A stretch of 64,000 nt of DNA from NCBI RefSeq assembly GCF_007971385.1, contig NZ_CP042434.1, positions 1,302,001-1,366,000 on the forward strand. Direction: 5' to 3'. The translations under genes and the position numbers were made by a program. The number at the start of each line of letters is the position of its first letter. Position 1 is the first letter of the stretch. Below, one piece after another: positions 403-42,876 of the stretch. Under the pieces are notes generated by a model. That model was not told the origin of the DNA. It did no database searches and saw nothing but the letters and a program-made list of their open reading frames with translations. This DNA comes from Arachidicoccus ginsenosidivorans (GTDB lineage: Bacteria; Bacteroidota; Bacteroidia; Chitinophagales; Chitinophagaceae).

Positions 403-1427
403 TTAGTCTTCGTCACTAAGGAGCTTTTCAAGTTCTCTAGCCAATTGTTCCTTATCTGGCAAAAAAAGCTGGTATTTACTTACAAATAAATGATTATTGA
501 TATTTCAGTAGCATATTCTACCAATATATGATCTTTAAATGCACCTAAAACAATTCCAATTGGGGGATTATCGTCTTGAGAGTTTTCCTCTTTTTTGAAA
601 TAATTTAGGTACATATTCATCTGGCCAATATCATTGTACTCAATTTCGCCACGCTTCAAATCTATAAGCACGAAGCATTTCAATTTATAATGATAAAAAA
701 CAAGGTCGACGTAAAAATTGCGATTTGATAACGTTATTCTATATTGTCTCCCTATAAATGCGAAGCCCTTCCCAAGTTCAAGCAAAAATGCTTCGAGATT
801 AGATATTAATTTTTCTTCTAATTCACTTTCTAGAAATCGATGTTTTTCAGGAATGCCAACAAATTCAAAAACATAAGGTTGTTTAATTATATCTGATGGC
901 TGGTTAATTTCAGCACCTTTGTTAGCAATTGCTAATACGCCCTCCTTATCCTTGCTCAAAGCAACCCTATGAAATAGCATAGATTTCATCTGACGTTTTA
1001 ACTCTCTAACACTCCAATTTTCTTTTTCACATTGTTTTGTATAAAACTCAATTTCTAAATTGTGCTCAGACTTTAAAATTTCGAAATAATGACTCCAACT
1101 TAATTTGTGAGACACCGTCTCACAAATTGGGAAAGACAAATAAAATTTACGCATATATGTTAAATTGGAGCGACTAAATCCCTTTCCATACTCTTGTTTT
1201 AAGTCCGTAGAAAGTCTTTCCAGTAATAAACTTCCATATTCTGATTTAACCTTACCACTTTGTTCAAATTCAACAATATGTTGTCCTATATGCCAATATG
1301 TTTGAACTAAAATACTATTCACTGCATACCCGGCATTTGACCGACCCTCATTAAATAGATTTCCTATTTGTTGTTTTAAATGATTATAATCCTTAGGCGA
1401 ATAAACCTCCCGACGCTTTTCTTTCAT
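403..1427 (-). CDS. DUF1016 (YhcG-like) PDDEXK nuclease domain protein, apparent frameshift near the 3' end
   Basis: The N-terminal half has the DUF1016_N pattern (YAVNSILVQTYWHIGQHIVEFEQ, split across the helices) and the C-terminal half the PDDEXK-like core, with FYVDLVFYH and VLIDLKRGE carrying the D and D-x-K type residues. As written, the frame stops at 480. One extra base in the TTT run at 503-505 restores the usual C-terminus (LFVSKYQLFLPDKEQLA) and a stop at 403, giving 341 aa. I chose the ATG at 1427 (MKEKRREVY) because the upstream in-frame extension to 1490 is hydrophobic and unlike the family. Such proteins occur with restriction-modification and mobile DNA; the substrate is not known here. 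No partner methylase is visible in the window. Confidence 0.8.
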
Positions 1428-1559
1428 ATTTATAAAATAACAAGTAAAAAGAATGAATAAACTCAATCTGGATTTATTAGGACTTAACATTAGCCAATAA
1501 AAAATACAATAAATTATAAAAACAAATGTAGGTGTAGAGGAACTTACTAAATATTAATA

Positions 1560-1609
1560 TTTGTACTGGCCAAAATCAGTACAAAGGTACTAAAATAATT
1601 CAAACCAAT
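1560..1609 (-). promoter_or_regulatory. Putative promoter of the DUF1016 gene with overlapping inverted repeat
   Basis: On the minus strand, TACCTTTG (1589 to 1582) fits the Bacteroidota -7 element TAnnTTTG, with a TTG-type upstream element near 1605-1609. A perfect inverted repeat, TTTGTACTG at 1560-1568 and CAGTACAAA at 1577-1585, overlaps the expected transcription start, so it could be an operator for autoregulation. Confidence 0.4.
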
Positions 1610-1700
1610 TTTATTATCGAGATAATATTTTCTATCTTATTTGCCAATACAGTATGTTCAACTATATTGATTATCACAATTATACAAGGATACTGGTGTA

Positions 1701-1716
1701 AATTAGGTGTAAAAAT
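1701..1716. repeat. 16-bp direct repeat, copy 2
   Basis: Exact copy of the 16 bases at 1-16, placed between the DUF1016 gene and the toxin gene. Confidence 0.6.
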
Positions 1717-1859
1717 AATTACAAATTATTTAGTAAAAACGAAAATAACCTTAAATTAATAAGCTAAAGACACTAAACATATTTCTAAAAAACAACTAAA
1801 ACTATATACCATTTTTGCTACAATAAGTGCCAACTATATTTACTAAATTTGCCAAGTAA

Positions 1860-2429
1860 ATGGATAATAAAAAAATTTATGTGATAGCAGGCTGTAATGG
1901 TGCGGGCAAAACAACCGCATCCTTTACTATATTACCTGATATTTTAGACTGTAAAGAATTTATCAATGCAGATGAAATAGCTCGTGGCCTCTCTCCTTTT
2001 CAGCCTGAAAAGGTTGCTGTAGAGGCGGGACGAATCATGTTGAACAGAATAAACGAACTTATTGCGGACAATGAAAATTTCGCTTTTGAGACCACTTTAG
2101 CAACAAGAAGTTATAAAAGTAAAATATTGGAGGCTAAAGAAAAAGGTTATACTGTAATTTTATTATTCTTTTGGTTACATTCTGTGGATTTAGCTATCAA
2201 ACGAGTCAATAACAGAGTTACTGAAGGAGGTCACTTTATAGAGCCAGAAGTTATTAAAAGAAGATATCTAAGAGGCATTAAAAACTTAAACAAATTGTAT
2301 TTACCAATTGTCGATCAAGCATTCATATATGACAATACAGATGGGAACAATGAGATGGTAGCAGAAAAAGAATTCAAGGGTTCTTTGAAGATTTTAAATA
2401 AAGAAATTTATAATTTAATAATACAATAA
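1860..2429 (+). CDS. Zeta-toxin-like P-loop kinase
   Basis: 189 aa. A Walker A motif (GCNGAGKTT, residues 11-19) opens the protein, followed by INADEIARGLSPF and FAFETTLATRSY, which match the substrate-binding and ETT regions of zeta-toxin family P-loop proteins, then an arginine-rich lid region (VNNRVTEGGH). Zeta toxins phosphorylate UDP-N-acetylglucosamine; this shorter chromosomal type has not been assigned a target. The next gene follows after one base, the usual layout of a toxin-antitoxin pair with the small protein second. TAAATTTG at 1844-1851 resembles a Bacteroidota -7 box but sits very close to the ATG. The region is clearly richer in AT than the core genes further right, suggesting acquisition by transfer. 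Confidence 0.8.
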   Translation: MDNKKIYVIAGCNGAGKTTASFTILPDILDCKEFINADEIARGLSPFQPEKVAVEAGRIMLNRINELIADNENFAFETTLATRSYKSKILEAKEKGYTVILLFFWLHSVDLAIKRVNNRVTEGGHFIEPEVIKRRYLRGIKNLNKLYLPIVDQAFIYDNTDGNNEMVAEKEFKGSLKILNKEIYNLIIQ

Positions 2430-2430
2430 T

Positions 2431-2628
2431 ATGGATAATAATACAAGCGAAGATTTACAACAAAAACTTCAACGCGGACTTGAATTAGCTTTTCAAAGAC
2501 TTTTGGAATTTAAAAAACAAAAGAAGAGTCCGCTTATTATTATGAAGGATAATAAAATTATTGAAGTATCAGCAGAAGAGTTTATCAAAAATCGATCTGC
2601 ATATCATAAACCCAAACCAGCCGTCTAA
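2431..2628 (+). CDS. Small protein following the zeta-like toxin, probable antitoxin
   Basis: 65 aa, with a helical, charged first half (DLQQKLQRGLELAFQRLLEF) and a short strand-rich tail (PLIIMKDNKIIEVSAEEF). It starts one base after the toxin stop, so translation is probably coupled. I recognise no named family. The antitoxin role is inferred from position and size. Confidence 0.65.
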   Translation: MDNNTSEDLQQKLQRGLELAFQRLLEFKKQKKSPLIIMKDNKIIEVSAEEFIKNRSAYHKPKPAV

Positions 2629-2771
2629 AAAAGCAGGCGGATGTGGATTTCAGAATTTAAAATATCAATTATAGGGGTACAAATTTTTTGAAATTGATTT
2701 ATAATTATTCAAGTATTTGATTATCAACTGTTTGCCAATACATAATATTAAATAGATATGATCTAAAATTT

Positions 2772-3422
2772 CTACATCATTACCCAATATCCTATAAACT
2801 GGCACAGAATTCCAATAACAAGCCCAAGATTAATCTCAAATAAACTATGTTCACTAAGTGCCATTCGTGCAGAACACACAATCCCGGCAATTAAAGTTAT
2901 GACTGTAATATCCAGTCCGTAATTATTTTGATATAATAAATAGGTAAGGATCACCCCAGCTAAGGCGCCACCTACCCCCATGGCATGCATACTAATCTTG
3001 ACAAAGTTATTTAGGATCAAACCGGGTACAGTCGCCAAAAAAATCCCAAAATAGAAGAATTTAAGCGCAGAAGCTTGATCTGTAAAATTTCTGCTGAGAT
3101 ACCACATCCACCAATAAAATATCATAGTGGCGATATAAGGAATAATCCTTTCTTTCTGGTTTCTAAGATGCATACTTTTAGCAAAACCCAATTTCCAGAG
3201 AAGAAAAACAGTAAAGGCCGGAAAAAATGCGGTTGTCATAAAAACACCGATTTCCCTAAGGGTAAGTTCATGGCCTTCCAGGCCAATAAATTCATAGGGA
3301 AACCTTTTTACCATCCAAAGGAATATATAGGTAGGTATAAACAATGGATGAAACACATAAGACAATACTTTTGCCAATATTCTAATAACTGCAGACTGCC
3401 GCTGGATTACATTTTCCGCCAT
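2772..3422 (-). CDS. Integral membrane protein, PAP2-like
   Basis: 216 aa with about six hydrophobic segments. The stretch KISMHAMGVGG resembles the K-x-S-x-H-x-x-G part of PAP2-type phosphatases, but the full triple motif is not evident, so enzymatic activity is uncertain. The start ATG lies two bases after the rpoN stop, so the two genes are almost certainly co-transcribed. Confidence 0.6.
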   Translation of the reverse strand: MAENVIQRQSAVIRILAKVLSYVFHPLFIPTYIFLWMVKRFPYEFIGLEGHELTLREIGVFMTTAFFPAFTVFLLWKLGFAKSMHLRNQKERIIPYIATMIFYWWMWYLSRNFTDQASALKFFYFGIFLATVPGLILNNFVKISMHAMGVGGALAGVILTYLLYQNNYGLDITVITLIAGIVCSARMALSEHSLFEINLGLVIGILCQFIGYWVMM

Positions 3423-3424
3423 AT

Positions 3425-4917
3425 CTATAATTGAATTCTTAACCGGGCCACTGGAATATTTAATTGCTCTCTGTATTTAGCCACGGTCCTGCGTGCAATA
3501 TTATAGCCTTTTTCTTGTAAAATCTCGGTTAATTTCTCATCACTGAATGGTTTTTGTTTATCCTCTCCTTCTATGACATCACTCAAAATCTTTTTCACCT
3601 CACGTGTAGATACTTCCTCACCGCTTTCCGTGCTTAACGACTCGCTGAAGAAGAACTTCAGTCGATAGGTCCCGAATTCAGTCTGAACAAACTTACTATT
3701 GGCAACCCGGCTTACCGTGGAGATATCCAGATCAATCATCTCTGCGATATCTTTGAGAATCATTGGCTTTAAAGTAGTCTCGTCACCAGTCATGAAAAAT
3801 TCTTCCTGATATTCCATAATCGCACCCATCGTACTCAGCAAAGTATGCTGACGCTGTTTGATCATATCAATAAACCATTTGGCAGAATCAATTTTTTGTT
3901 TGATAAACAAGATGGCTTCCTTTTGTCTTTTGTCCTTCTTATCCCCTTTATCATAATCTCGAAGCATGTCTCTATATCCATCGCTGATACGCAGATCAGG
4001 TGCATTCTTCGCATTCAGGGATAGTTCCAGTTCTCCATTATTATTAAATATGAAAAAGTCAGGTACAATATAACTCATAGCTTTGTTTACCTCACCTACC
4101 CCCCACCTGGTTTGGGGTTAAGCCGAATAATAGCCCCTATAGCAGATTTAAGCTGCTGTTCGGTGATACCAAGGCCTCTTTGGATCTTCTCATAATGTTT
4201 TTTAGTAAACTCATCAAAATATCTGGTCAATATCCGGATGGCCACCTGGGCAGGCGCTTCTGCATCTGGGCCTAACCTGCCCAGTTGAAGTAATAGACAT
4301 TCCTGTAAATCCCGTGCACAGATACCCGCAGGATCAAATTGTTGGATTTTTTCAATGATAAGTTCCACCTCCTGTTCATTAGAATCTATATTCTGCCTGA
4401 AAGCCAGGTCATTAACGATGGAAGCTAGCTCCCTTCTGAGGTAGCCATCATCGTCAATACTACCTATAATTTGTTCAGCTATTACAGATTCCTTATCCGA
4501 CAAGGACAGCATACCTAACTGTGTTTTTAAGGTTTCATGGAGGCTACTTTCTACCTTAAAGGGAATATTCTGCTTATCCTCTGCTTCCTGATAACCATCT
4601 GAACGAAGTTTATAATCAGCAATCTCATCATCCCCTTCACTCACATATTCAGAAATATCAATATTCTCATATTCCTGTTCACTTCCATCAGGCTCAAATT
4701 CATCTTCTTGCTGTGCATCATATTCTTCTGCAGGCAATTCTAAATCATCTTGCGCGTCTTCTTCATTACTTTCTTCCAGTGCCGGATTTTCTTCCAACTC
4801 TTCTTTTATGCGCTCTTCCAGATTTGCTGTCGGAATTTGCAACAATTTCATTAGCTGAATTTGTTGTGGTGACAGCTTCTGCATGAGCTTTTGCTGTATG
4901 GTTTGACTCAGTGCCAT
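3425..4917 (-). CDS. rpoN: RNA polymerase sigma-54 factor RpoN, apparent frameshift
   Basis: The N-terminal part carries region I (QKLSPQQIQLMKLLQIP) followed by a long acidic region II. The C-terminal part carries the DNA-binding domain, ending in the RpoN box (ARRTVAKYRE). The frame breaks after LNPKPGGG at a C6 run on the plus strand (4099-4104). One extra base joins it to VGEVNKAMSYIVPDF and gives 497 aa, the normal size. As written there are two pieces, 4096-4917 and 3425-4078. Sigma-54 directs transcription from -24/-12 promoters together with AAA+ activators. The run could be phase-variable or a sequencing error; the many similar breaks nearby favour error. Confidence 0.93.
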
Positions 4918-32356: not shown

Positions 32357-32440
32357 GCCCAGGTGGCGAAATTGGTAGACGCACTGTGTTCAGGTCGCAG
32401 CGTTCGCAAGGATGTGCTGGTTCGAATCCAGTCCTGGGCA
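32357..32440 (+). tRNA. tRNA-Leu (anticodon CAG)
   Basis: The acceptor stem GCCCAGG/CCTGGGC closes perfectly with discriminator A at 32440. The anticodon stem CTGTG/CGCAG holds loop TTCAGGT, so the anticodon is CAG. A variable arm of about 12 bases (CGTTCGCAAGGATG region) marks a class II tRNA. The T arm contains GGTTCGAATCC. CCA is not encoded. Confidence 0.96.
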
Positions 32441-32442
32441 CT

Positions 32443-32864: not shown

Positions 32865-34496
32865 TCAATTCGGAACAGGCAGGATCATAGCCGGCAACGC
32901 ATCCCTTTCATACCAATATTTTGCTAAACTATCATCCTTTTGTACCCCGTGTCCCCCATTACGATATAAGTTACCCAAAGCATACATTGAAGCAGCATAA
33001 CCATTCTGGGCTGCCTCTTCAAAAAGCATTGCAGCCTTCTTATAATCTTTTGCAACACCATGACCAAAATAGTACAACCATCCCAACCCATTTAAGGCCG
33101 CCCTATGATTGCCGCTATCTATCGCCCTTTCATACCAATATTTAGCTTTTTTATATTCTCGATTTCCCATATTATCTCGCAGACCTGCATAATCGTTTGC
33201 ATATAGGACACCTAACAGAACCATAGCTTCCACTTCCCCATTATTCACCGCCATTCCATACCAATATATTGCTTTTTTATAATCACTGGGAAACCCTAAC
33301 CCATTTGCATACAGATATCCTAATTTATACATAGCCTTTGAGCTTCCTTTCTTAACAGCCTTTTCATAATAATTCCTTGCAGGTCCATAATTGCGTTTGT
33401 CAAAATGCTCATTCCCTAATTGTAGTAGGTCTTCAACACTTTTTTTGGAGGCAGTATTATTTGTCGCATTACCTTTTACCTTCTCCGTGTCAGTGTTTAT
33501 CGTATGTAAAGGTTCTTGTTCTGAATGCACCTCTGTTAACGAGTCCTTTACGAATTTAGGGTTTGGTGCATTTTCATCTGCCGTACGCTTATTTACTGAA
33601 TCGGCAAACCTTAAAAACTTGCCGGTTTCGTCTATGTAGAAATTACTATCGTTTACACTGACCCTGGCTTCACCGCCCTTAAAAGTGCTGGCGGTATTAT
33701 ACCTTGGCCAAATAAAGAGATAATCACCCTTCTTATAGCCGTACAAACCATTGTGCTCAAATAAGACGGGCGCGGAATTTAGACCAGGCTTCAAAATTAA
33801 CAAAGCCAAAGCCCCGATGATAATCACAGCCGCCAGCCCGATAATCAGTATGCGCTTCCTTTTGGTTTTTCCGTCCGTATGCTCTTCTATAAAGTCTCCG
33901 GACAATTTTTCCTGTTTCTTTTGGGCTTTTTCCTTTGCCAGTTGATCCAGTGCGCTTTGCTCAGCTCTTTTTCGGGCCAGGTATTCTTTTGCCTGCCGAT
34001 CCGTCAGCAGGATCGCAATTAACTTTTTGGCTTTAACCAGTTCTTCTTCATACAGTTTTTTTGCGGGTGCCAGAAACTGACTTTGCAATCCGTTTTCAAG
34101 GTCTTCGAGTTTCGTCTTTGTCAACTGGTCAAAAGTCACTTTGCCGTCTTCGGGAGAAAGGCCAAAATAATCATAAGCATCCAACAGGCTATACTGGGAA
34201 CTGTTTTCCGGCTTCACTTTGGCACTTTGATTTTCCCTGGCGGCATCCTCGTAAAGCACCCGTTTTGTTCTCGGCAGGTCTATGGTATCGTTCACACCTT
34301 CGCTACCGTTAAGCAGACTGTAGGCTTCCTTAATATGTTCTAATTGTTGCTCAAACATTTGCCTAAGGCGTGGTGTGGGTGCGTTGTCTATGCGCATACG
34401 GTAGTCACCATGCATGGCAGCAAACTTCCGACGCACTTCTTGTATGTCAGTGCCTTCAGGCAGCTCTATTCGTTGAAAGGCTTCTTCGTGGGTCAT
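32865..34496 (-). CDS. J-like/WG/SEL1 membrane protein
   Basis: 543 aa, last gene of the Hsp70 operon. Residues 1-65 look like a J-domain (helix, loop, helix) but have HGD (29-31) where J-domains have HPD. A second J-like or helical segment spans 100-175 (LLDAYDYFGLSPEDGKV). A membrane helix lies at about 215-236 (ILIIGLAAVIIIGALALLI). A WG-type repeat follows (GLYGYKKGDYLFIWPRY), then about five SEL1 repeats from 355 (AMYKLGYLYANGLGFPSDYKKA type). The layout suggests a cytosolic J-like head and an extracytoplasmic repeat tail. The first 160 residues are nearly identical to those of the gene at 36192-37667. The end may be truncated by the stop at 32865. Confidence 0.72.
   Translation of the reverse strand: MTHEEAFQRIELPEGTDIQEVRRKFAAMHGDYRMRIDNAPTPRLRQMFEQQLEHIKEAYSLLNGSEGVNDTIDLPRTKRVLYEDAARENQSAKVKPENSSQYSLLDAYDYFGLSPEDGKVTFDQLTKTKLEDLENGLQSQFLAPAKKLYEEELVKAKKLIAILLTDRQAKEYLARKRAEQSALDQLAKEKAQKKQEKLSGDFIEEHTDGKTKRKRILIIGLAAVIIIGALALLILKPGLNSAPVLFEHNGLYGYKKGDYLFIWPRYNTASTFKGGEARVSVNDSNFYIDETGKFLRFADSVNKRTADENAPNPKFVKDSLTEVHSEQEPLHTINTDTEKVKGNATNNTASKKSVEDLLQLGNEHFDKRNYGPARNYYEKAVKKGSSKAMYKLGYLYANGLGFPSDYKKAIYWYGMAVNNGEVEAMVLLGVLYANDYAGLRDNMGNREYKKAKYWYERAIDSGNHRAALNGLGWLYYFGHGVAKDYKKAAMLFEEAAQNGYAASMYALGNLYRNGGHGVQKDDSLAKYWYERDALPAMILPVPN
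34020..34496. repeat. Near-identical duplicated 5' gene segment, copy 1
   Basis: About 475 bp are nearly identical in DNA and orientation to 37191-37667, with few mismatches in the first 300 bp of each gene. The offset is 3171 bp. Confidence 0.85.
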
Positions 34497-34541: not shown

Positions 34542-36178
34542 CTATTTATAATATCGCTCCGGCAGCCAGCATAAGGCCAGAGGCACTTTAATCTGGTGCT
34601 TGTCATTATCCGGGAAATGGCCCGTGATATAGGTATAGCCTATGGCGCGGTAACCACGTTTCAATCTCCAGGAGAGCCGGTACCCCTGCTTTCCATGCTC
34701 TTCCGACATGGCAAGCGAAGGCGCATAGCCTGAAAAAGAAATATCATCCTCAGGCCGATTTTTATCATTCGTATATGTAGGAAATATCTGCACCTTGCCC
34801 ACACGAGACTTTTTATAAGTTACGTCAAACTGCCAGCCGACACCAAATTTCGTCATCACATAAGGGAAGTTTTTCTGATGAGCGGTTAAAGGCTCGTCTT
34901 CGACCAATATTCTGTTACCGTATTGCGAAGTGTTCAGTTCGTGGTATTTCTTATTTTCTATATCCCTAAGTACCTGTAAATAAAGAGCCGCCTTTTTATC
35001 CCCCTTTTCTTTTGCTTTTTCAAAAAGTGCGATGGCTTTACTTTTGATTTTAGCCGCGCCACCCACCCCGAAAAGATAAAATTCTCCCGCAAGCCTTAAA
35101 CCATAAATATACTCAAGTTCCGCAGCCTTTTCATACCATTCAAAGGCTTTATCCCAATCAATTACTACTCCGTATCCTCTGTCATAAATTTCCCCTAAAT
35201 AAAACATCCCCTTGCTATTTCCTTTCTCGGCGGCTTTTTCAAACCAGTATTTAGCTGTGGTGTTATTTTCAGCAACGCCTTTACCTTGATAATACAAGAG
35301 TCCAAGGTTGCTCATCGCCGCAGCATCTCCCTTCTTCGCGGCTTTTTCATACCAGTATTTAGCTTTGACATTGTCCTGCGCCCCCCTTTACCATATCTAT
35401 ATAACCAGCCTAAATTATTCATCGCACTCGCAACTCCCTTCAGCGATGCTTTTTCAAACCAGTATTTGGCTTTGGTATAATCTATGGTAAGCCTATCATC
35501 ATAGAAATACAAATCTCCAAGGTGATCCATCCCATCCGCATCTCCCATATCTGCCGCTTTTTTATAATAAGTCATGGCTTTCACGTAATTTTTTTCCACG
35601 CTCAACCCAAATTCATATAACACACCAATATTAACTATGCTCCCTTCATTTCCTCTATCCGCCGCTTTCTCATACCAGTATTTGGCTTGAGCATAATCTT
35701 TTGTTACCCCATTTCCATTATGATACAATACCCCGAGGTTATTCATAGCCCATGTATCTCCTTTTGCTGCTGCCCTTTCATACCATAGTTTTGCCTGTGC
35801 ATAGTCTTGCTCTACAGCCTTGCCGTCACTATAAAGGCGCCCCATCATAAACATATTTCTTGCATTGCTTTCTATATTGTATTGAATAAACTTCAGCGCT
35901 TTTTTTGCGATTTCATCCGAAATATCAATATTCGAATATATTAGTGCCTGGTATAGCGCTTCAGTGTATAGCTCCCTGTTCTTCTTGCCTAGGGTAGATG
36001 GCGTAATATTATCCCGATCTATGGCAGCAGAAAAGAACCGCAAGTTGGTATTAAACGCTTTAGCGTCATTGTTTTTAGCACCTGCTATAGCCTGCTCTAG
36101 ATAGGCAGTGTATTCTTCGTTCTGCGCCATAATAGCAAGCGGTAATAAGGTGAATATCAGTATAACTAGTTTTTTCAT
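34542..36178 (-). CDS. Exported SEL1-repeat protein, apparent frameshift
   Basis: Signal peptide MKKLVILIFTLLPLAIMAQ. About eight SEL1 (TPR-like) repeats follow, each with A-x2-LG-x-LY and KAKYWYEKAA motifs, then a C-terminal domain of about 130 residues rich in aromatic and basic residues (PYVMTKFGVGWQFDVTYKK) that I do not recognise. One extra base at the C6 run 35381-35386 joins the two pieces through YGKGGAQDNVKAKYWYEKAA, giving 545 aa. SEL1 repeats bind proteins; export places it in the periplasm or at the outer membrane. Confidence 0.78.
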
Positions 36179-36191
36179 CTCTTTGTATATT

Positions 36192-37667
36192 TTATTGGGT
36201 TAAACATTGAAGTAATGATTTTGCCTCGCGTCCGTTTGGATTGTTTTTCAGGGCTCTTTTCAGCCGTTCAATCACCTGCGATTTGCAGACAGGATTAGCC
36301 CGGCAACCTTCACAACCATCCACAGCCACCATCTTTTTGGCCCAGCTGAGATCTTTATTATATTGCATCATATTAACTTTTGTACGGCTGTGTTTTTCGG
36401 TCGTTTTACTTTGTTTGGTTGGACTCCCCTGCTTATCCAGTGCCGCTATTTTTATTTTGGCCTCTGCCACATAGTGCCCTTCTGGGTATAATTTCAGATA
36501 GCTTTCATAAGCCGGTTTACTACCAGATGCCGCCGCAATTTCCCAGGCTGTCCGGTCTTTTTCCGCCAACTTTTGACTTTCTGTTTCAGCAGCACTGACG
36601 TTCACTTTAATCAGGTGGGTCAGTTTTCCTGTTTCGTCAATATAAAATACACTGTCGTGAACACTTACTTTGGCTTGTCCCTCATTAAAAGCCGCTGCGC
36701 TTTCAAACTGGGGCTCAATAACAATATGCCCATCTTTCTTATAACCATACAGACTACCCTGTTGCATAACAACCAGCGTTGATGGTTCTTCCAGTTTGGG
36801 TTTAAAATACGCAAAAGCCAGAACACCGAGTACGATCACCACCAGGCTGATGATCCATATAAATTTTCCTTTCATTTTATTTGCAGAATGAGCATCTACG
36901 GCATTTTTGCACGGATTGTTTGCTGCCTTATCCCTTTGTTTTTCGGCTTTTTGCTGGGCCAGATGCGCTTTTTCCGCCTCTGCTTTTTCAATACGTTCAT
37001 GTTCAGCCCGTTTACGCGCCTGTCGTTGCAGTTCGGCCTTTTCTCTGGCCATCCTTTCCTGTGCTGCTTTTTCTTTGGCCAGCCGCTCTTTTTCGGCCTT
37101 TTCTCTGGTTAATCGTTCCTGCTCTCTTTTCTCAGCTATGTTCTGGGCCAGGGCTTCTTTTGCCTGCCGATCAGTCACAAGTAGTGCATTTAATTTTGTA
37201 GCCTTGACCAGCTCTTCTTCAAACAGTTTTTTTGCGGGTGCCAGAAACTGGCTTTGCAAACTGGTTTCAAGGTCTTCTAGTTTCTTCTTTGTCAACCGGT
37301 TAAAAGTCACTTTATCATCTTCGGGAGAAAGGCCGAAATAATCATAAGCATCCAACAGGCTATACTGGGAACTGTTATCCGGCTTCACTTTGGCACTTTG
37401 ATTTTCCCTGGCGGCATCCTCGTAAAGCACCCGTTTTGTTCTCGGCAGGTCTATGGTATCGTTCACACCTTCGCTACCGTTGAGCAGACTGTAGGCTTCC
37501 TTAATTTGTTCTAATTGTTGCTCAAACATTTGCCTAAGGCGTGGTGTGGGTGCGTTGTCTATACGCATACGGTAGTCACCATGCATGGCAGCAAACTTTC
37601 GACGCACTTCTTGTATGTCAGTGCCTTCAGGCAGCTCTATTCGTTGAAAGGCTTCTTCTTGGGTCAT
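36192..37667 (-). CDS. J-like/WG membrane protein
   Basis: 491 aa. The N-terminal 175 residues are almost the same as in the 34496 gene, again with HGD instead of HPD. Then comes a long charged Ala/Lys/Glu/Arg helix (about 180-260; EKAEKERLAKEKAAQERMA), a membrane helix at about 273-295 (FIWIISLVVIVLGVLAFAYF), a WG-type repeat (GSLYGYKKDGHIVIEPQF), and a C-terminal part with CEGC and VCKS cysteines. It lacks SEL1 repeats. It sits between the Hsp70 gene (46 bases) and the exported SEL1 gene (13 bases). Role unknown. Confidence 0.7.
   Translation of the reverse strand: MTQEEAFQRIELPEGTDIQEVRRKFAAMHGDYRMRIDNAPTPRLRQMFEQQLEQIKEAYSLLNGSEGVNDTIDLPRTKRVLYEDAARENQSAKVKPDNSSQYSLLDAYDYFGLSPEDDKVTFNRLTKKKLEDLETSLQSQFLAPAKKLFEEELVKATKLNALLVTDRQAKEALAQNIAEKREQERLTREKAEKERLAKEKAAQERMAREKAELQRQARKRAEHERIEKAEAEKAHLAQQKAEKQRDKAANNPCKNAVDAHSANKMKGKFIWIISLVVIVLGVLAFAYFKPKLEEPSTLVVMQQGSLYGYKKDGHIVIEPQFESAAAFNEGQAKVSVHDSVFYIDETGKLTHLIKVNVSAAETESQKLAEKDRTAWEIAAASGSKPAYESYLKLYPEGHYVAEAKIKIAALDKQGSPTKQSKTTEKHSRTKVNMMQYNKDLSWAKKMVAVDGCEGCRANPVCKSQVIERLKRALKNNPNGREAKSLLQCLTQ
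37191..37667. repeat. Near-identical duplicated 5' gene segment, copy 2
   Basis: Partner of 34020-34496 in the same orientation. Recombination between the copies would remove 3171 bp, including the exported SEL1 gene. Confidence 0.85.
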
Positions 37668-37713: not shown

Positions 37714-39243
37714 CTATAGCGCATTATTAATAAAGGCCTTCTGAACAATTCTTTTCTGATTGGATAAATAATTGGCGTCCATGCCTTCTTTGCCAAAGGT
37801 TTTTTCCAATTCCAGACCAGTCTCAGGATTATAGGCTTGAAGAATAACAATGCCGTCTTCTGAGTATTCAATCGTGACCTCTATGGGATAATTGGCCTTA
37901 TCAGTGGGCAACGGCCCGACATTTAACAATCCCAGGGTTTTAACATCCTCCTCCTCAATAAACTGAAGCAGCTCTATCCGCATTTTGCCGCCATTATTAG
38001 GTGCGGTGTAATAGGTCTTTTTTATTTTCAGCGGAACGGGCCGGTTTTTGGGAATGATAATATCCAGAACTGTCCTGCCGGTTTCTGGATTAATGGCACG
38101 CAGAGCGATATTATAACCTGTTACGCCCCGCAATTCGGAGGGCATGTCCATATTATCAAAACGATTCTGGTCGCCATTCAGTACTCGGGCATAAATGGCA
38201 GCGCCGAACACAACTGCTTTCATGGGATCCTGAAAGCGAATTTTTCCAGCCAGTGCGGGCATTTCTTCTTCTATTCTTTTACGCACAAATGGAATCATGG
38301 ATGATCCGCCCACCATCAGCAACGTATCTACAATGTCTTCTGTAAGGCCGGCAGAGGACAGACATCTTTTCAGAATTTTAATGGTTCTATCCACTTCGTA
38401 GGTGATGGCCTTTTCAAATTCTTTTCGGGTGATGAACACTTCTATACTATCGTTTCCTAGCAGACATACACGGTTGATATATTGCACACCTGGGCTGGCC
38501 AATTCAATTTTTACTTCTTCGCAAAACACTCTTAACTGTTGCAACTTGCTACCTGTAAAAAGCAAAGATTTTCCAGCGGCTTTTTCAAATTGTTTTTGTA
38601 CCAGTACAGCCATGGCTTCATCAAATTCTTTACCCCCCAAATCGGTCAGCCCGTCTTTGCTCATAACATAAAATCCTTTGTCGTTTACCGTCAGTACAGT
38701 GGCATCGAAAGTGCCACCTCCTAAGTCATAGACCAAGATGTTCTGTTCATGCGCTTTGTTGCTGATACCATAATACATAGCGGCTGCCACGGGTTCTTCC
38801 ACTAATCCCAGCACCGTAAGGTCTATCATGGCCGCGGCATTCAAAATCGCTTTGCGCTGTGCATCGTCGAAATGCGCAGGAACCGTAATCACAGCACCAT
38901 CTACAGTATTGGAAGCGTAAATTTCCGCATCATATTTGATTTTTTTCAACACCAGTGCCGCAATAGATTCCGGATACCAGACATTGCCTTCCTGGTCAAT
39001 ATGCAGTTCTTTTTTCTCGCCCAGATACCGTTTAAAAAAACGAATAACGTCCAGTCCGGGGTTTTGTTCCAGCATATTCAGCACCGACTGGCCGACAAAA
39101 GCATTGTTCCCGTTGATATGGACAGTGCTTGGAGTGTACAGCACGGTCTTATCGGAATTGTCAGGCAACAACACCGGCTGCTGGTCCAGATTGAGCGTAC
39201 CAGCCAGTGAATATGTCGTCCCAAGGTCTATCCCGATAATCAT
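37714..39243 (-). CDS. Hsp70 (DnaK-like) chaperone lacking the C-terminal lid
   Basis: 509 aa against about 640 for DnaK. ATPase motifs are intact: IGIDLGTTYSLAG, VPAHFDDAQRKAI, EEPVAAAMYYG, VYDLGGGTFDATVL and LLMVGGSSMIPFVR. A beta-type substrate domain follows (NIALRAINPETGRTVLD onward), but the protein ends after about 130 residues with no helical lid. The inter-domain linker is not the classical DnaK VLLLD sequence. It is therefore not the housekeeping DnaK but a specialised Hsp70. Its start overlaps the stop of the previous gene by four bases. Partner proteins are probably the J-like products of the same operon. Confidence 0.88.
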   Translation of the reverse strand: MIIGIDLGTTYSLAGTLNLDQQPVLLPDNSDKTVLYTPSTVHINGNNAFVGQSVLNMLEQNPGLDVIRFFKRYLGEKKELHIDQEGNVWYPESIAALVLKKIKYDAEIYASNTVDGAVITVPAHFDDAQRKAILNAAAMIDLTVLGLVEEPVAAAMYYGISNKAHEQNILVYDLGGGTFDATVLTVNDKGFYVMSKDGLTDLGGKEFDEAMAVLVQKQFEKAAGKSLLFTGSKLQQLRVFCEEVKIELASPGVQYINRVCLLGNDSIEVFITRKEFEKAITYEVDRTIKILKRCLSSAGLTEDIVDTLLMVGGSSMIPFVRKRIEEEMPALAGKIRFQDPMKAVVFGAAIYARVLNGDQNRFDNMDMPSELRGVTGYNIALRAINPETGRTVLDIIIPKNRPVPLKIKKTYYTAPNNGGKMRIELLQFIEEEDVKTLGLLNVGPLPTDKANYPIEVTIEYSEDGIVILQAYNPETGLELEKTFGKEGMDANYLSNQKRIVQKAFINNAL

Positions 39244-40991
39244 AATTGTGTTACTATTTGTTGATATTGGTTCATTAATTCCCCTTTAAACTGGGCTAAA
39301 GCACGATCGTAGGTTTCCTTGTTGCGAACAATAACCTGATGGGCTCTTTCACGCTGTTCCAGTCCCTGCACCCGCCTCTGGACGGAACGCTGTTGCTTTT
39401 GTAACAGTTCTTTGTTGTTCTCTGAAGCCGATTCAAATACTGTTTCCAGGTGGCTGATAAACTGGTTCATTTCTATTCTAACACAGCCACTGACCTCTCT
39501 TTGCCATTCGTCTGAAAATTTGCCAATCATACCTTTGCTTTCATTCAAAAGAGATTCTTGCATTTTTCTGAGTTCCTTATCGTAATCCCGTTCCTTTTTA
39601 ATTTTAGTATTGCGAAGGAATTTTCTAAATCCTAGGATGGCAAGTGGTGTAAGAACGATACCGGCTATTATCATAAATGTGGTCTTTATACTTCTAGGGA
39701 TGGGAACAAACCGGAAAATAATAAAAAAGGACATAACACTCATAAATGGGGCCATCGCCGCCCGAACATAATCTGAAAATTCCAGTTTTTTCTTTTCCAA
39801 TTCATATTTCTGCTGAAAGCGGACATATTCCATCATATTAAGTTCCAGCCGCGACGTATTGATATTGGGACTGGGGTGATAACTAAACTGAAATCCTTTG
39901 GGTTTTAGTTTTTCTTTCAATAGGCTCACTTCCTGATTCAAGAAGGCTTCCATAGTGTGTACCCCCTCAGAGATTGTCCTTTTTAAAGACTGATTGATAA
40001 AATCCAGCAGGCGGCGCTGTGTACCTTCGGGTAAACCCATAAGAATATTGCCCGCAAATGTTTCTTCCACCAGATGGTTTACTTTTTTCACCTCTGTCTC
40101 TACCTGCGCCATCAGAGATCTGGGATTATGCAGTTGTTTGAGCTGAATAGCCTGCTCACTGACCCCATTTTCAAACTCGCTAAAATCCCGTTGTAAACCG
40201 GATTTCAGTTGTTGAAAAAAATCACGAGAATTGACGTTTTCCTGCAGTTTAACGCTGTTAATTTCTTGCTGAGCCCCGAAACGTTTGGATTTTATATCAC
40301 GCTCCTGCTGATTCATATATTGGTAAAAGGCATCGGAAATTTTCTCTAATCCCTGCACCGCCCGGATGCTCTGCATGGACTGCAAAAGCGGGAGCAGTTT
40401 ATACAATTCCACCAGTTCCGCAAAACGCTCCGGTAGTTTATTCCATTCAAGGGAGATAACTTTCAATTGTTCCGACTGTTGCATAAAAATGTCCGTACCA
40501 TTATATATCATCATAACGGTCCCACCTTCCGCATCCGTACGCCATAAAACAGTTTCCGTGTCGTCGGCTTCCACGTTATTAGTCGCAAATCCGAAAAGAA
40601 TTTTAAAAGCTGGTGCCTGGCGCAGTGTACTTCTTGTCGGGAAATGCCTACCCCTGTACACCGTGATATCAAATAATTGCGAACTGCATTCCAGCTGAGT
40701 CATAAATAGGTTGGCGGCTTTTACATCCTGTAAATTTTCCAATAGTTGGTCAACTTTTTGTCTGTTGACATTTATAAAGTCCACAAACCGGATCAACTGA
40801 GTCTCATCGGGCTCGTCCAGCCACACCATTTCAATTTGAATAGGGGTTGATACAAGTACCTGTCCGGCCAGCGTCTGCAAGTGTGTTTTCAGATGATGCC
40901 CACCCTCCATTCTAGGGTAGGCATCCATCAATTCATCCAGCCCTGCAAATGCTTTCTGATACCGATCCTGAAATGTTCTGGTTAATGCCAC
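39240..40991 (-). CDS. Two-helix membrane protein with long coiled coils
   Basis: 583 aa. A soluble N-terminal domain (1-200) with strands (IQIEMVWLDE, LFDITVYRG, GGTVMMIYNG), a long helical region (200-405), two membrane helices at about 412-430 and 437-456 separated by a PIPRS turn, and a coiled C-terminal region (465-583). The helical-paddle arrangement recalls dynamin-like proteins, but no G1 P-loop is present, so it is not a GTPase as far as I can see. Translationally coupled to the Hsp70. Function unknown. Confidence 0.7.
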   Translation of the reverse strand: MALTRTFQDRYQKAFAGLDELMDAYPRMEGGHHLKTHLQTLAGQVLVSTPIQIEMVWLDEPDETQLIRFVDFINVNRQKVDQLLENLQDVKAANLFMTQLECSSQLFDITVYRGRHFPTRSTLRQAPAFKILFGFATNNVEADDTETVLWRTDAEGGTVMMIYNGTDIFMQQSEQLKVISLEWNKLPERFAELVELYKLLPLLQSMQSIRAVQGLEKISDAFYQYMNQQERDIKSKRFGAQQEINSVKLQENVNSRDFFQQLKSGLQRDFSEFENGVSEQAIQLKQLHNPRSLMAQVETEVKKVNHLVEETFAGNILMGLPEGTQRRLLDFINQSLKRTISEGVHTMEAFLNQEVSLLKEKLKPKGFQFSYHPSPNINTSRLELNMMEYVRFQQKYELEKKKLEFSDYVRAAMAPFMSVMSFFIIFRFVPIPRSIKTTFMIIAGIVLTPLAILGFRKFLRNTKIKKERDYDKELRKMQESLLNESKGMIGKFSDEWQREVSGCVRIEMNQFISHLETVFESASENNKELLQKQQRSVQRRVQGLEQRERAHQVIVRNKETYDRALAQFKGELMNQYQQIVTQL

Positions 40992-41009: not shown

Positions 41010-42080
41010 TTAAATCGAAAATCCTCCCGATGCAGAAGCGGAGGAGCGGGCTGATTCGATTTCCGCTAGTGCGCTATGTGCCTGCGACAGAATGGAATCC
41101 AATTCAGACTGAACCCCTTCTGCATCGCCTTTTTTACTTTCAATTTCGGAAACAAGACTTTCTGCCTGTCCTTTTAAATCTTCAATTTCCGCTTTGAGAT
41201 TTTCTGCTTCCTGTTTTAAGCTATCCACTTCCTGTTTCAGGCCATCGGATTCTTCCTTGAGTTGCATTATTTCATCTTTCGTTTGTGTACTTTCATCGCG
41301 GAGCTGAGTACTCTCGTCACGCAATTGCGAGGACTCATCTCTTAGCTGAAGGGATTCATCTCTGGCACCGTTTATCTCATCATGCATACTGTTTGATTCA
41401 TCTCTGGCATTACCAATCTCATCATGCATACTGTTGGACTCATCTCTGGTAGTACTAATCTCATCATGCATACTATTGGACTCATCTCTGGCAGTACTAA
41501 TCTCATCATGCATACTATTGGACTCATCTCGGGCAGTACTAATCTCATCATGCATACTATTGGACTCATCTCGGGCAGTGCTAATCTCATCATGCATACT
41601 GTTGGACTCATCTCGGGCAGTGCTAATCTCATCATGCATGCTGTTTGATTCATCTCGGGCAGCAGCGATTTCATCATGCATGCTGTTTGATTCATCCCGG
41701 GCAGAGCCAATCTCATCATGCATACTATTGGATTCATCACGGGCAGAGCCAATCTCATCATGCATGCTGTTCGATTCATCTCGGGCAGAGCCAATCTCAT
41801 CATGCATGCTGTTCGCCTCATCTCGGGCAGCAGCGATTTCATCATGCAGACTATTGGATTCGTCACGGATGTTACTGATTTCATCATGTAAAGTATCCAC
41901 TTGATGATTAGCTTCCTGAGTTTGCTGTTGTAATGTAAGTACTTCGTTGTAGGCATCCTGGACGGCCTGGTGCTGTCCGGTAATATCATCTGTCATTCCC
42001 TGGATCGAAGATGATTTTTCGATTAATTCGTCAAGGGTGGCGCTCGCATCCGAAAGCAGCGCATCTAATTCTGCAGCCAT
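41010..42080 (-). CDS. Coiled-coil protein with twelve 14-residue repeats
   Basis: 356 aa, almost wholly coiled coil. After residue 71 come twelve near-identical 14-residue units of the form RDESNSMHDEIGSA (72-239), then four 7-residue units (RDESxQL), then ordinary coiled coil (LKQEVDSLKQEAENLKAEI), and a Ser/Ala/Gly tail. No signal or membrane helix. Fourteen residues equal two heptads, so the array would form a rod whose length changes with copy number. It lies 18 bases upstream of the 583-aa membrane protein, probably a structural partner. Confidence 0.8.
   Translation of the reverse strand: MAAELDALLSDASATLDELIEKSSSIQGMTDDITGQHQAVQDAYNEVLTLQQQTQEANHQVDTLHDEISNIRDESNSLHDEIAAARDEANSMHDEIGSARDESNSMHDEIGSARDESNSMHDEIGSARDESNSMHDEIAAARDESNSMHDEISTARDESNSMHDEISTARDESNSMHDEISTARDESNSMHDEISTARDESNSMHDEISTTRDESNSMHDEIGNARDESNSMHDEINGARDESLQLRDESSQLRDESTQLRDESTQTKDEIMQLKEESDGLKQEVDSLKQEAENLKAEIEDLKGQAESLVSEIESKKGDAEGVQSELDSILSQAHSALAEIESARSSASASGGFSI
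41364..41867. repeat. Tandem array of twelve 42-bp units inside a coding region
   Basis: Twelve 42-bp units (504 bp) encode the 14-residue repeats. Units differ mainly in the last three codons (GSA, AAA, STA, GNA, NGA). The adjacent STA units are closest to each other, suggesting recent local expansion. Confidence 0.9.
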
Positions 42081-42117: not shown

Positions 42118-42876
42118 CTATATCGATTTAGCCAAAGCACTTAATACCTGCATTTTGAAGTCTACAGTAAGCGTTAATTCCGGTGAAGGTGCCAGGCCAA
42201 GCAACGACATCATTTCGCCATCCAAATGACTATTTTCCGTCACATAAGCATCCAGTTCATCCTGATGGATGACAGGATCTGAAAGTTGCTGGGTATGTGC
42301 TTCCAGTAAATCAGTGCTGGATTGAATATCCTCACTAGACTCAGCATGTGGGTCACCCTCAAAACTCAGATCCTCGAGGCTTTTTCCATCGCTATCGCTA
42401 TTACTCAAATAATGATAAGCAGCCAGCGAAATACCGGCTCCGGCAAGCGCTGATGCTGCCGTTAGTATTGTGTGATTTTTTCTTTTGGGATCGCGAAGCA
42501 GTAAATCTCGGTTTCTGTGCAGGGTGTCCCAGTCCGTATTGGGGTTATGATCATTGCTGGAAGTGCGGGGCCACTCATTCTCCCGCTTTTGCACAGTATC
42601 CCAATCAGCAGTATCTGAAAGACCCACAGATTTGAGTGCCTGCCTTGTTTGAAACATCCGGCCGTTTTCTGCAGAGACTTTATTGGAAAATACCGTAAAT
42701 AGTTTTTTTAAATGGCTTTGTTTTTTTTCTATTTCTCGAATCTGCTCCTTATCCGCTTGTTTTTTCATCTGTTCAGTATTGTCCAGGGAGGCATCATAGC
42801 GCTGCTTAACTTCCGTCCACTTTGCGGTTAGAGGAAGCCCTAATGAATCATAGATATTATCGCTGTTATTCTGCAT
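42118..42876 (-). CDS. Divergent J-like membrane protein, first gene of the Hsp70 operon
   Basis: 252 aa. IYDSLGLPLTAKWTEVKQRYDASL resembles the first two helices of a J-domain, and ALKSVGLSDTADWDTVQKREN looks like a second copy, but no HPD is seen. A hydrophobic helix lies at about 147-167 (ILTAASALAGAGISLAAYHYL), followed by an acidic tail. No known family recognised. It starts the operon; the next gene is 37 bases downstream. Confidence 0.6.
   Translation of the reverse strand: MQNNSDNIYDSLGLPLTAKWTEVKQRYDASLDNTEQMKKQADKEQIREIEKKQSHLKKLFTVFSNKVSAENGRMFQTRQALKSVGLSDTADWDTVQKRENEWPRTSSNDHNPNTDWDTLHRNRDLLLRDPKRKNHTILTAASALAGAGISLAAYHYLSNSDSDGKSLEDLSFEGDPHAESSEDIQSSTDLLEAHTQQLSDPVIHQDELDAYVTENSHLDGEMMSLLGLAPSPELTLTVDFKMQVLSALAKSI

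Follow-up and report, generated by a model that had tools for sequence, protein, structure and literature searches.

A 42-bp coding array within a predicted coiled-coil rod encoded in an Hsp70 operon of Arachidicoccus ginsenosidivorans

The 64-kb stretch of the Arachidicoccus ginsenosidivorans genome analysed here (the window) carries a coiled-coil gene whose middle consists of 12 tandem 42-bp units. We favour, on balance, the reading that these units form the middle of a coiled-coil protein with a structural role, a rod that would probably serve as a strut of a membrane-bound Hsp70 module. The rod gene comprises the following segments.

41010-42080, minus strand: rod gene, encoding a predicted acidic coiled coil of 356 aa with a net charge of -65 and neither proline nor cysteine (from ORF, composition, periodicity and orthologs)
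41892-42080, minus strand: N-terminal non-repetitive segment, residues 1-63, kept in five orthologs
41364-41867, minus strand: 12 tandem 42-bp coding units, rod residues 72-239, each unit two heptads (from repeat finding and unit comparison)
41280-41363, minus strand: four degenerate RDESxQL-type heptads adjoining the array (from sequence comparison)
41013-41279, minus strand: C-terminal heptad segment and Gly/Ser tail, residues 268-356, kept in orthologs

Consecutive units fill 41364-41867 exactly, as the earlier note had proposed from the letters of the window, and its account of the frame also holds: the 42-nt units are tandem, a multiple of three, and lie in one open frame within ORF 41010-42080. 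Tandem Repeats Finder placed the array at 41374-41868 (period 42, 11.8 copies, 89% matches, 0% indels), with a score of 626 that was the top of nine rows for the 64-kb window. Identity at lag 42 was 0.883; when the codons of the ORF were shuffled 1000 times, the highest value at lag 21, 42 or 63 averaged 0.304 and never exceeded 0.365, which rules out a chance origin of the array. Each unit adds two heptads, again as claimed: it reads RDE(S/A)NS(M/L)HDEI plus three looser positions, with R, D, E, N, the S at position 6, H, D, E and I invariant in all 12 units and free variation at positions 12-13 only. If RDE falls at e-f-g, the register that we infer, Glu(g)-Arg(e') pairs would form in a parallel coil.

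At the DNA level the units are more diverged than the 'nearly identical' copies of the earlier note, a description that proved too strong. Mean pairwise identity among the 12 units is 83% (range 69-100%), and only one of the 66 pairs (units 8 and 9) is identical. Differing codon pairs are synonymous in 250 of 384 cases, and between units mean dN is 0.081 and mean dS 0.896 (dN/dS ~0.09 by the Nei-Gojobori method, a rough value with units of 42 nt). Similarity between units falls with their distance along the array (r = 0.49, permutation p = 0.0001 with 10,000 permutations), and at offsets of 42 and 84 bp the exact repeats measure up to 48 and 38 bp, respectively. From the overall identity, the single identical pair and the low dN/dS, we therefore read the array as mostly old and held by purifying selection at the protein level, with some local duplication.

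These divergence data bear on two other explanations. One is that the unit count is wrong through repeats collapsed or expanded in assembly. Rods of this kind do trouble assemblies: at two other loci, the rod of L059 contains 18 X and has a span of 4 mod 7, on which grounds we left it out of the register count given below, and the rod gene of L023 has 2 undetermined bases (N). The window genome, however, is one contig of 5.77 Mb, and every unit other than 8 and 9 is set apart by base differences of its own, which argues against an assembly origin of the array; we consider a wrong count very improbable. The other is a tunable spacer or contingency locus, in which unit number often changes within the species and rod length alters the working of the complex, as in-frame rearrangement of cagY reportedly does. 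In-frame units and the two exact repeats would suit such a locus, but the near absence of identical pairs and the high synonymous divergence are unlike a freshly and repeatedly expanded array. A dS of ~0.90 and a longest exact repeat of 48 bp at a one-unit offset point to slow turnover, not to a rapidly changing contingency array.

Hydrophobicity along the rod peaks at periods of 3.5 and 7.0 residues, and this periodicity, together with the absence of proline, fits a coiled coil. The N-terminus has LDELIEKSS, conserved in five orthologs (LDELIDKSS in L050), and the tail ends in GGFSI in the window and in FMF in the other four; reading by eye, we saw no signal peptide or anchor. The four degenerate heptads beside the array are similar to the Sphingobacterium heptad LRDESTA and are probably an older form of the rod. 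This resemblance suggests that the 14-residue unit arose later and spread within a rod that was originally of the LRDES type.

Since coiled coils draw chance matches, we took the downstream TM protein (583 aa) as the marker for orthologous loci, and we compared one genome per species. A search of the five remaining genomes of the window's genus gave no sign of the marker beyond a single hit at chance level (G001, E 9.2e-4), which falls in an antiporter-like ORF and was dropped. It is present in Sphingobacterium micropteri (L008), in two more Sphingobacterium genomes (L022 and L023, from 93 searched, of which 9 matched at 1e-3 and 3 strongly) and in one further genome of Sphingobacterium's family (L050, from 399 drawn, of which 55 matched at 1e-3 and 5 at or below 1e-6). 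Further searches gave matches in 6 of 294, 3 of 147, 1 of 3 and 1 of 9 genomes and, at 1e-6, in 3 of 396 and 1 of 395, the last being the window's own genome. Loci such as L026-L049 matched the middle of the TM-protein profile weakly (2.5e-5 to 9.7e-4); their frames are mostly ~300-317 aa and perhaps represent one unrelated conserved protein. As for mobile carriage, the TM protein had no match in plasmids or, by tblastn, in viral contigs.

Between the conserved anchors LDELI, close to the N-terminus, and EIES, close to the C-terminus, the rods of the five loci span 324 (window), 317 (L008), 310 (L022), 289 (L023) and 275 (L050) residues. All five spans are 2 mod 7, equal to 46, 45, 44, 41 and 39 heptads: heptad number is different in each species, and every ortholog has stayed in register. 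The suggestion in the earlier note that the rod could change length without breaking frame is thus borne out between species, where the rods differ by whole heptads only. Spans equal modulo 7 are expected from any in-register exchange and are therefore no proof of selection on their own, and with only five rods a constraint on length is not statistically shown. At 0.1485 nm per residue, the five spans would measure ~41-48 nm if fully helical.

The repeat itself differs among the five rods. At the DNA level it recurs every 42 bp in the window and L023 but every 63 bp in L008, L022 and L050; at the protein level, the period is fourteen residues for the window and seven for the other four. Where L022 has the same residue at lag 63, the codon is also the same 62% of the time, as against 25% at lag 21; the corresponding figures for L023 are 68% (lag 42) and 34% (lag 21). 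The copied blocks therefore comprised two or three heptads and differed by lineage. In the window and in L023, heptads are on average more alike in DNA within their own array than between arrays (0.58 vs 0.46-0.50 and 0.71 vs 0.46-0.62, respectively); for L008, L022 and L050 the two means are about equal, so that lineage-wise rewriting is clear in two of the five rods by this measure. L022 and L023 carry longer exact repeats than the window, of 152 bp (offset 126) and 89 bp (offset 84), respectively. These longer repeats, the local-duplication signal and the different heptad number in each of the five species speak for a tunable spacer; against it, span varies by only ~15% across species whose TM proteins are 41-50% identical to that of the window. 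We consider frequent switching within the species improbable, and return to the reading of the array as the middle of a structural rod.

The rod gene stands in an operon with the following other genes.

42118-42876, minus strand: 252-aa protein with a J-domain-like N-terminus lacking HPD and one predicted hydrophobic segment (from model and motif scan)
39240-40991, minus strand: 583-aa protein with two predicted TM segments (408-447), dynamin-superfamily-like by its model and with no P-loop (from model and motif scan)
37714-39243, minus strand: 509-aa Hsp70 with intact ATPase signature motifs (from Pfam HSP70 and motifs)
36192-37667, minus strand: 491-aa protein with a J-like N-terminus, TM segment and WG-repeat-like part (from Pfam scan and motifs)
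35312-36178, minus strand: Sel1-repeat protein, possibly one half of a split gene (from Pfam scan)
34542-35315, minus strand: Sel1-repeat protein, possibly the other half of that gene (from Pfam scan)
32865-34496, minus strand: 543-aa protein with a J-like N-terminus, TM segment and Sel1 repeats (from Pfam scan and motifs)

The order J-like protein, rod, TM protein and Hsp70 is common to all five loci, and Hsp70 is followed in them by J-like proteins with Sel1, WG or other C-terminal parts. In a wider set of 13 loci (the window, L008, L022, L023, L050, L051, L053, L056, L057, L058, L059, L065 and L066), the TM-protein gene directly precedes the Hsp70 gene in every case. The rod had been proposed as a possible spacer between parts of a complex, and its place in an operon of likely complex partners supports that much of the proposal.

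Several other observations concern these genes and their surroundings. The two Sel1-repeat ORFs at 34542-36178 overlap by 4 bases, and the first has a tail that is no longer Sel1-like; a single gene may have been broken in two here, through a frameshift or an error in sequencing. The J-like proteins at 32865-34496 and 36192-37667 are nearly identical over their first 70 residues and differ in their C-terminal parts, which suggests that the N-terminal module was recently duplicated or exchanged. A second, weaker repeat of in-frame length (37031-37108, 30 bp, 2.6 copies) sits in a charged helix of the J-like/WG gene. A tRNA-Leu (cag) gene lies at 32357-32441, ~420 bases from the end of the module, which is rare among relatives; no second copy (at least 14 bases) of its 3' end was found in the 64-kb window, which therefore gives no evidence for an integration site. 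Near the L022 module, positions 822-3626 encode a 934-aa protein whose start looks vWA-like by eye and which has no Pfam match at 1e-4. Eight proteins were given to the PADLOC-DB defence models: seven had no match, and the rod weakly matched 28 long coiled-coil models. A defence-system identity was rejected, these matches being generic coiled-coil matches to the rod only.

The TM proteins of all five close (type A) loci have two predicted TM segments; among seven distant ones, the same scan predicted two segments in three proteins, a single segment in three others and three segments in the last. The 583-aa protein was modelled from a two-sequence alignment (pLDDT 62.8, pTM 0.43), and the top Foldseek matches of the model are bacterial dynamin-like proteins: all seven rows with E < 0.001 belong to the dynamin superfamily (best 1.6e-5), at TM-scores of 0.16-0.27. 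VIA-align gave MFN2 at Z 12.9 (rmsd 7.3, 246 aligned), which falls below the Z of ~13-14 usual for helical models, followed by Cj-DLP at Z 12.1 and a chemoreceptor at Z 10.3; small GTPases aligned at Z ~8-9, with rmsd near 3-4, over residues 47-205. A GTPase P-loop was found in none of 12 TM-protein sequences, no dynamin Pfam model (Dynamin_N included) matched any of eight scanned proteins up to E 1, and the TM-protein profile had no match to solved structures up to E 0.1. By the strands of the model, the stretch equivalent to the P-loop reads LD.P.E.QL in four aligned TM proteins, which suggests a conserved pseudo-site.

The neighbouring Hsp70 (PF00012) matches the Pfam HSP70 profile at E 3.5e-78 over profile positions 1-495 of 599 and carries the phosphate and adenosine ATPase motifs at residues 4, 173 and 311. 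It stops at 509 aa, where the helical lid of DnaK would begin (the profile is matched to 489-495), and scores below the NCBIfam equivalog cut-offs for canonical DnaK (259.7 bits vs 648; 257.3 vs 822.55). Its L008 counterpart is 74% identical. Neither the 252-aa protein nor its four orthologs have an H-x-D in the N-terminal part, and the N-termini of the Sel1/WG-type J-like proteins read HGD, HND, HNE or YND. The N-terminus of the 252-aa protein models as a two-helix hairpin (residues 10-60 at pLDDT 76-89, mean pLDDT of the model 49.6), and 25 of the 46 Foldseek rows are J-domain entries or chimeras, none with E < 0.001; the best J-domain row has E 2.6 and probability 0.85, and the top row overall is an unrelated toxin at probability 0.10. 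The only solved-structure match of this protein, a LOV2-DARPin fusion at E 0.033, was taken as chance. The dynamin-like and J-like folds are thus predictions from models with mean pLDDT of 62.8 and 49.6, respectively.

More distant versions of the module (type B: L051, L053 and L059) have long rods built on a 14-residue repeat (823, 874 and 835 aa, respectively), in operons that also have FHA, TM-protein and Hsp70 genes. Two of their spans, 630 and 644, are 0 mod 14 and about twice the type A length; that of L059 is 648. Both type B rods scanned with Pfam (L051 and L053) end in a Peptidase_S74 chaperone domain, and the end of the L059 rod matches that of L053 by BLAST; type B rods are possible trimeric cytoplasmic fibres. 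Alignment of the type A and type B rod N-termini by hhalign gave a probability of 2% over 14 columns, and homology of the two rod types is unsupported. Neighbours include FHA, PP2C and kinase/FGE-sulfatase proteins at L053, and PP2C and kinase/FGE-sulfatase proteins at L065. In L056, L057, L065 and L066, no ORF of 100 aa or more in the locus stretch encodes a repeat rod; the first two have TPR proteins instead. The contig of L058 starts immediately ahead of the TM gene, so this locus was not included when rods were counted. Of the 12 assessable module loci, four are without a rod; the rod is therefore not needed by every version of the module.

That absence, the doubled length of type B rods and the degeneracy of coiled-coil sequence are what one would expect of a passive spacer, in which heptad number drifts neutrally, any long acidic coiled coil suffices and rod length is without function. 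Purifying selection on the unit is strong and argues otherwise, as do the conserved ends with their FMF-type tail and the similar spans of the five close orthologs although the repeat has changed, and we regard a functionless length as possible but doubtful.

Under the structural-rod reading, the non-repetitive ends would bind partners and the middle would set the distance and helical register between them. Unequal exchange or slippage between repeats in register would add or remove two or three heptads of the gene at a time, as the repeat periods and synonymous sites lead us to infer, and presumably only products that keep the seven-residue register, as all five spans do, would survive. Each lineage would rewrite the repeat, with length remaining at about 39-46 heptads, a range that selection may hold. 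To judge from operon and predicted fold, the membrane-spanning J-like proteins may bring the short Hsp70 to the complex, and Hsp70 may supply an ATP cycle to the P-loop-less dynamin-like membrane protein. The array would then be an evolutionary by-product of a register-locked rod with loosely held length, rather than a demonstrated switch within the species.

Known systems resemble the rod and its module in part. Streptococcal M proteins are surface-anchored coiled-coil rods whose size varies by repeat blocks. The rod shares with them a long coiled coil whose length differs by repeat blocks, but has no signal peptide or anchor visible by eye and is encoded in an Hsp70 operon. The middle repeat region of Helicobacter pylori CagY, as described in two papers (PMC2581425, PMC3585145), consists of direct DNA repeats that undergo in-frame deletion and duplication; the rod likewise has in-frame DNA repeats in a helical repeat region, a likeness that implies no sequence relation. 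The A/B motifs of CagY, however, are longer and were reported from CD not to be coiled coils (PMC2581425), and CagY is a secretion-system part with demonstrated rearrangement within the host. By analogy, CagY shows that in-frame switching of helical repeats can happen elsewhere.

Partial likenesses extend to the other module proteins. As in the Hsp70-containing GAP1-N2 GTPase and iSTAND conflict systems described by Kaur et al. 2020 (PMC7159879), a dedicated Hsp70 stands beside J-type and TPR proteins, and TM-anchored Sel1/OmpA parts are a further likeness; those systems have GrpE, GTPases and MoxR/vWA pairs, none of which Pfam scans identified beside the module. Coiled coils and Hsp70-like proteins also occur together in the CoCoNuT type IV restriction systems (PMC11090510). 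CoCoNuT, however, is built on McrB GTPase and McrC homologs, of which none was found among the module proteins scanned, and the Hsp70 of the module keeps its ATPase motifs. Bacterial dynamin-like proteins (BDLP, Cj-DLP1/2, IniA, SynDLP) resemble the TM protein in its predicted G-domain-like N-terminus, helical stalk and TM hairpin, whereas the TM protein lacks a P-loop in all 12 sequences and a Dynamin_N match in all eight scanned. No description of the module turned up in searches of the open-access literature.

Coding minisatellites and variable coiled-coil rods are already known, and less ordinary than the array is the module itself, in which a TM protein with a predicted dynamin-like fold and no P-loop is encoded directly before an Hsp70. 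In its boldest form, which we think quite improbable, the operon would be an unreported membrane machine: a lidless short Hsp70 would drive a dynamin-like protein that has lost its GTP site, and the heptad-counted rod would act as a ruler between membrane parts (~41-48 nm, and ~94 nm in the distant version) reset per species by duplication of heptad blocks. The value of these loci lies in a natural series of orthologous rods whose repeat was rewritten while register and approximate length were kept, and whose synonymous sites record the duplication block of two or three heptads. The series makes it a testable question whether rod length is measured. If the neighbouring Hsp70 does serve a dynamin-like membrane protein without a GTP site, this would be a new use of Hsp70.
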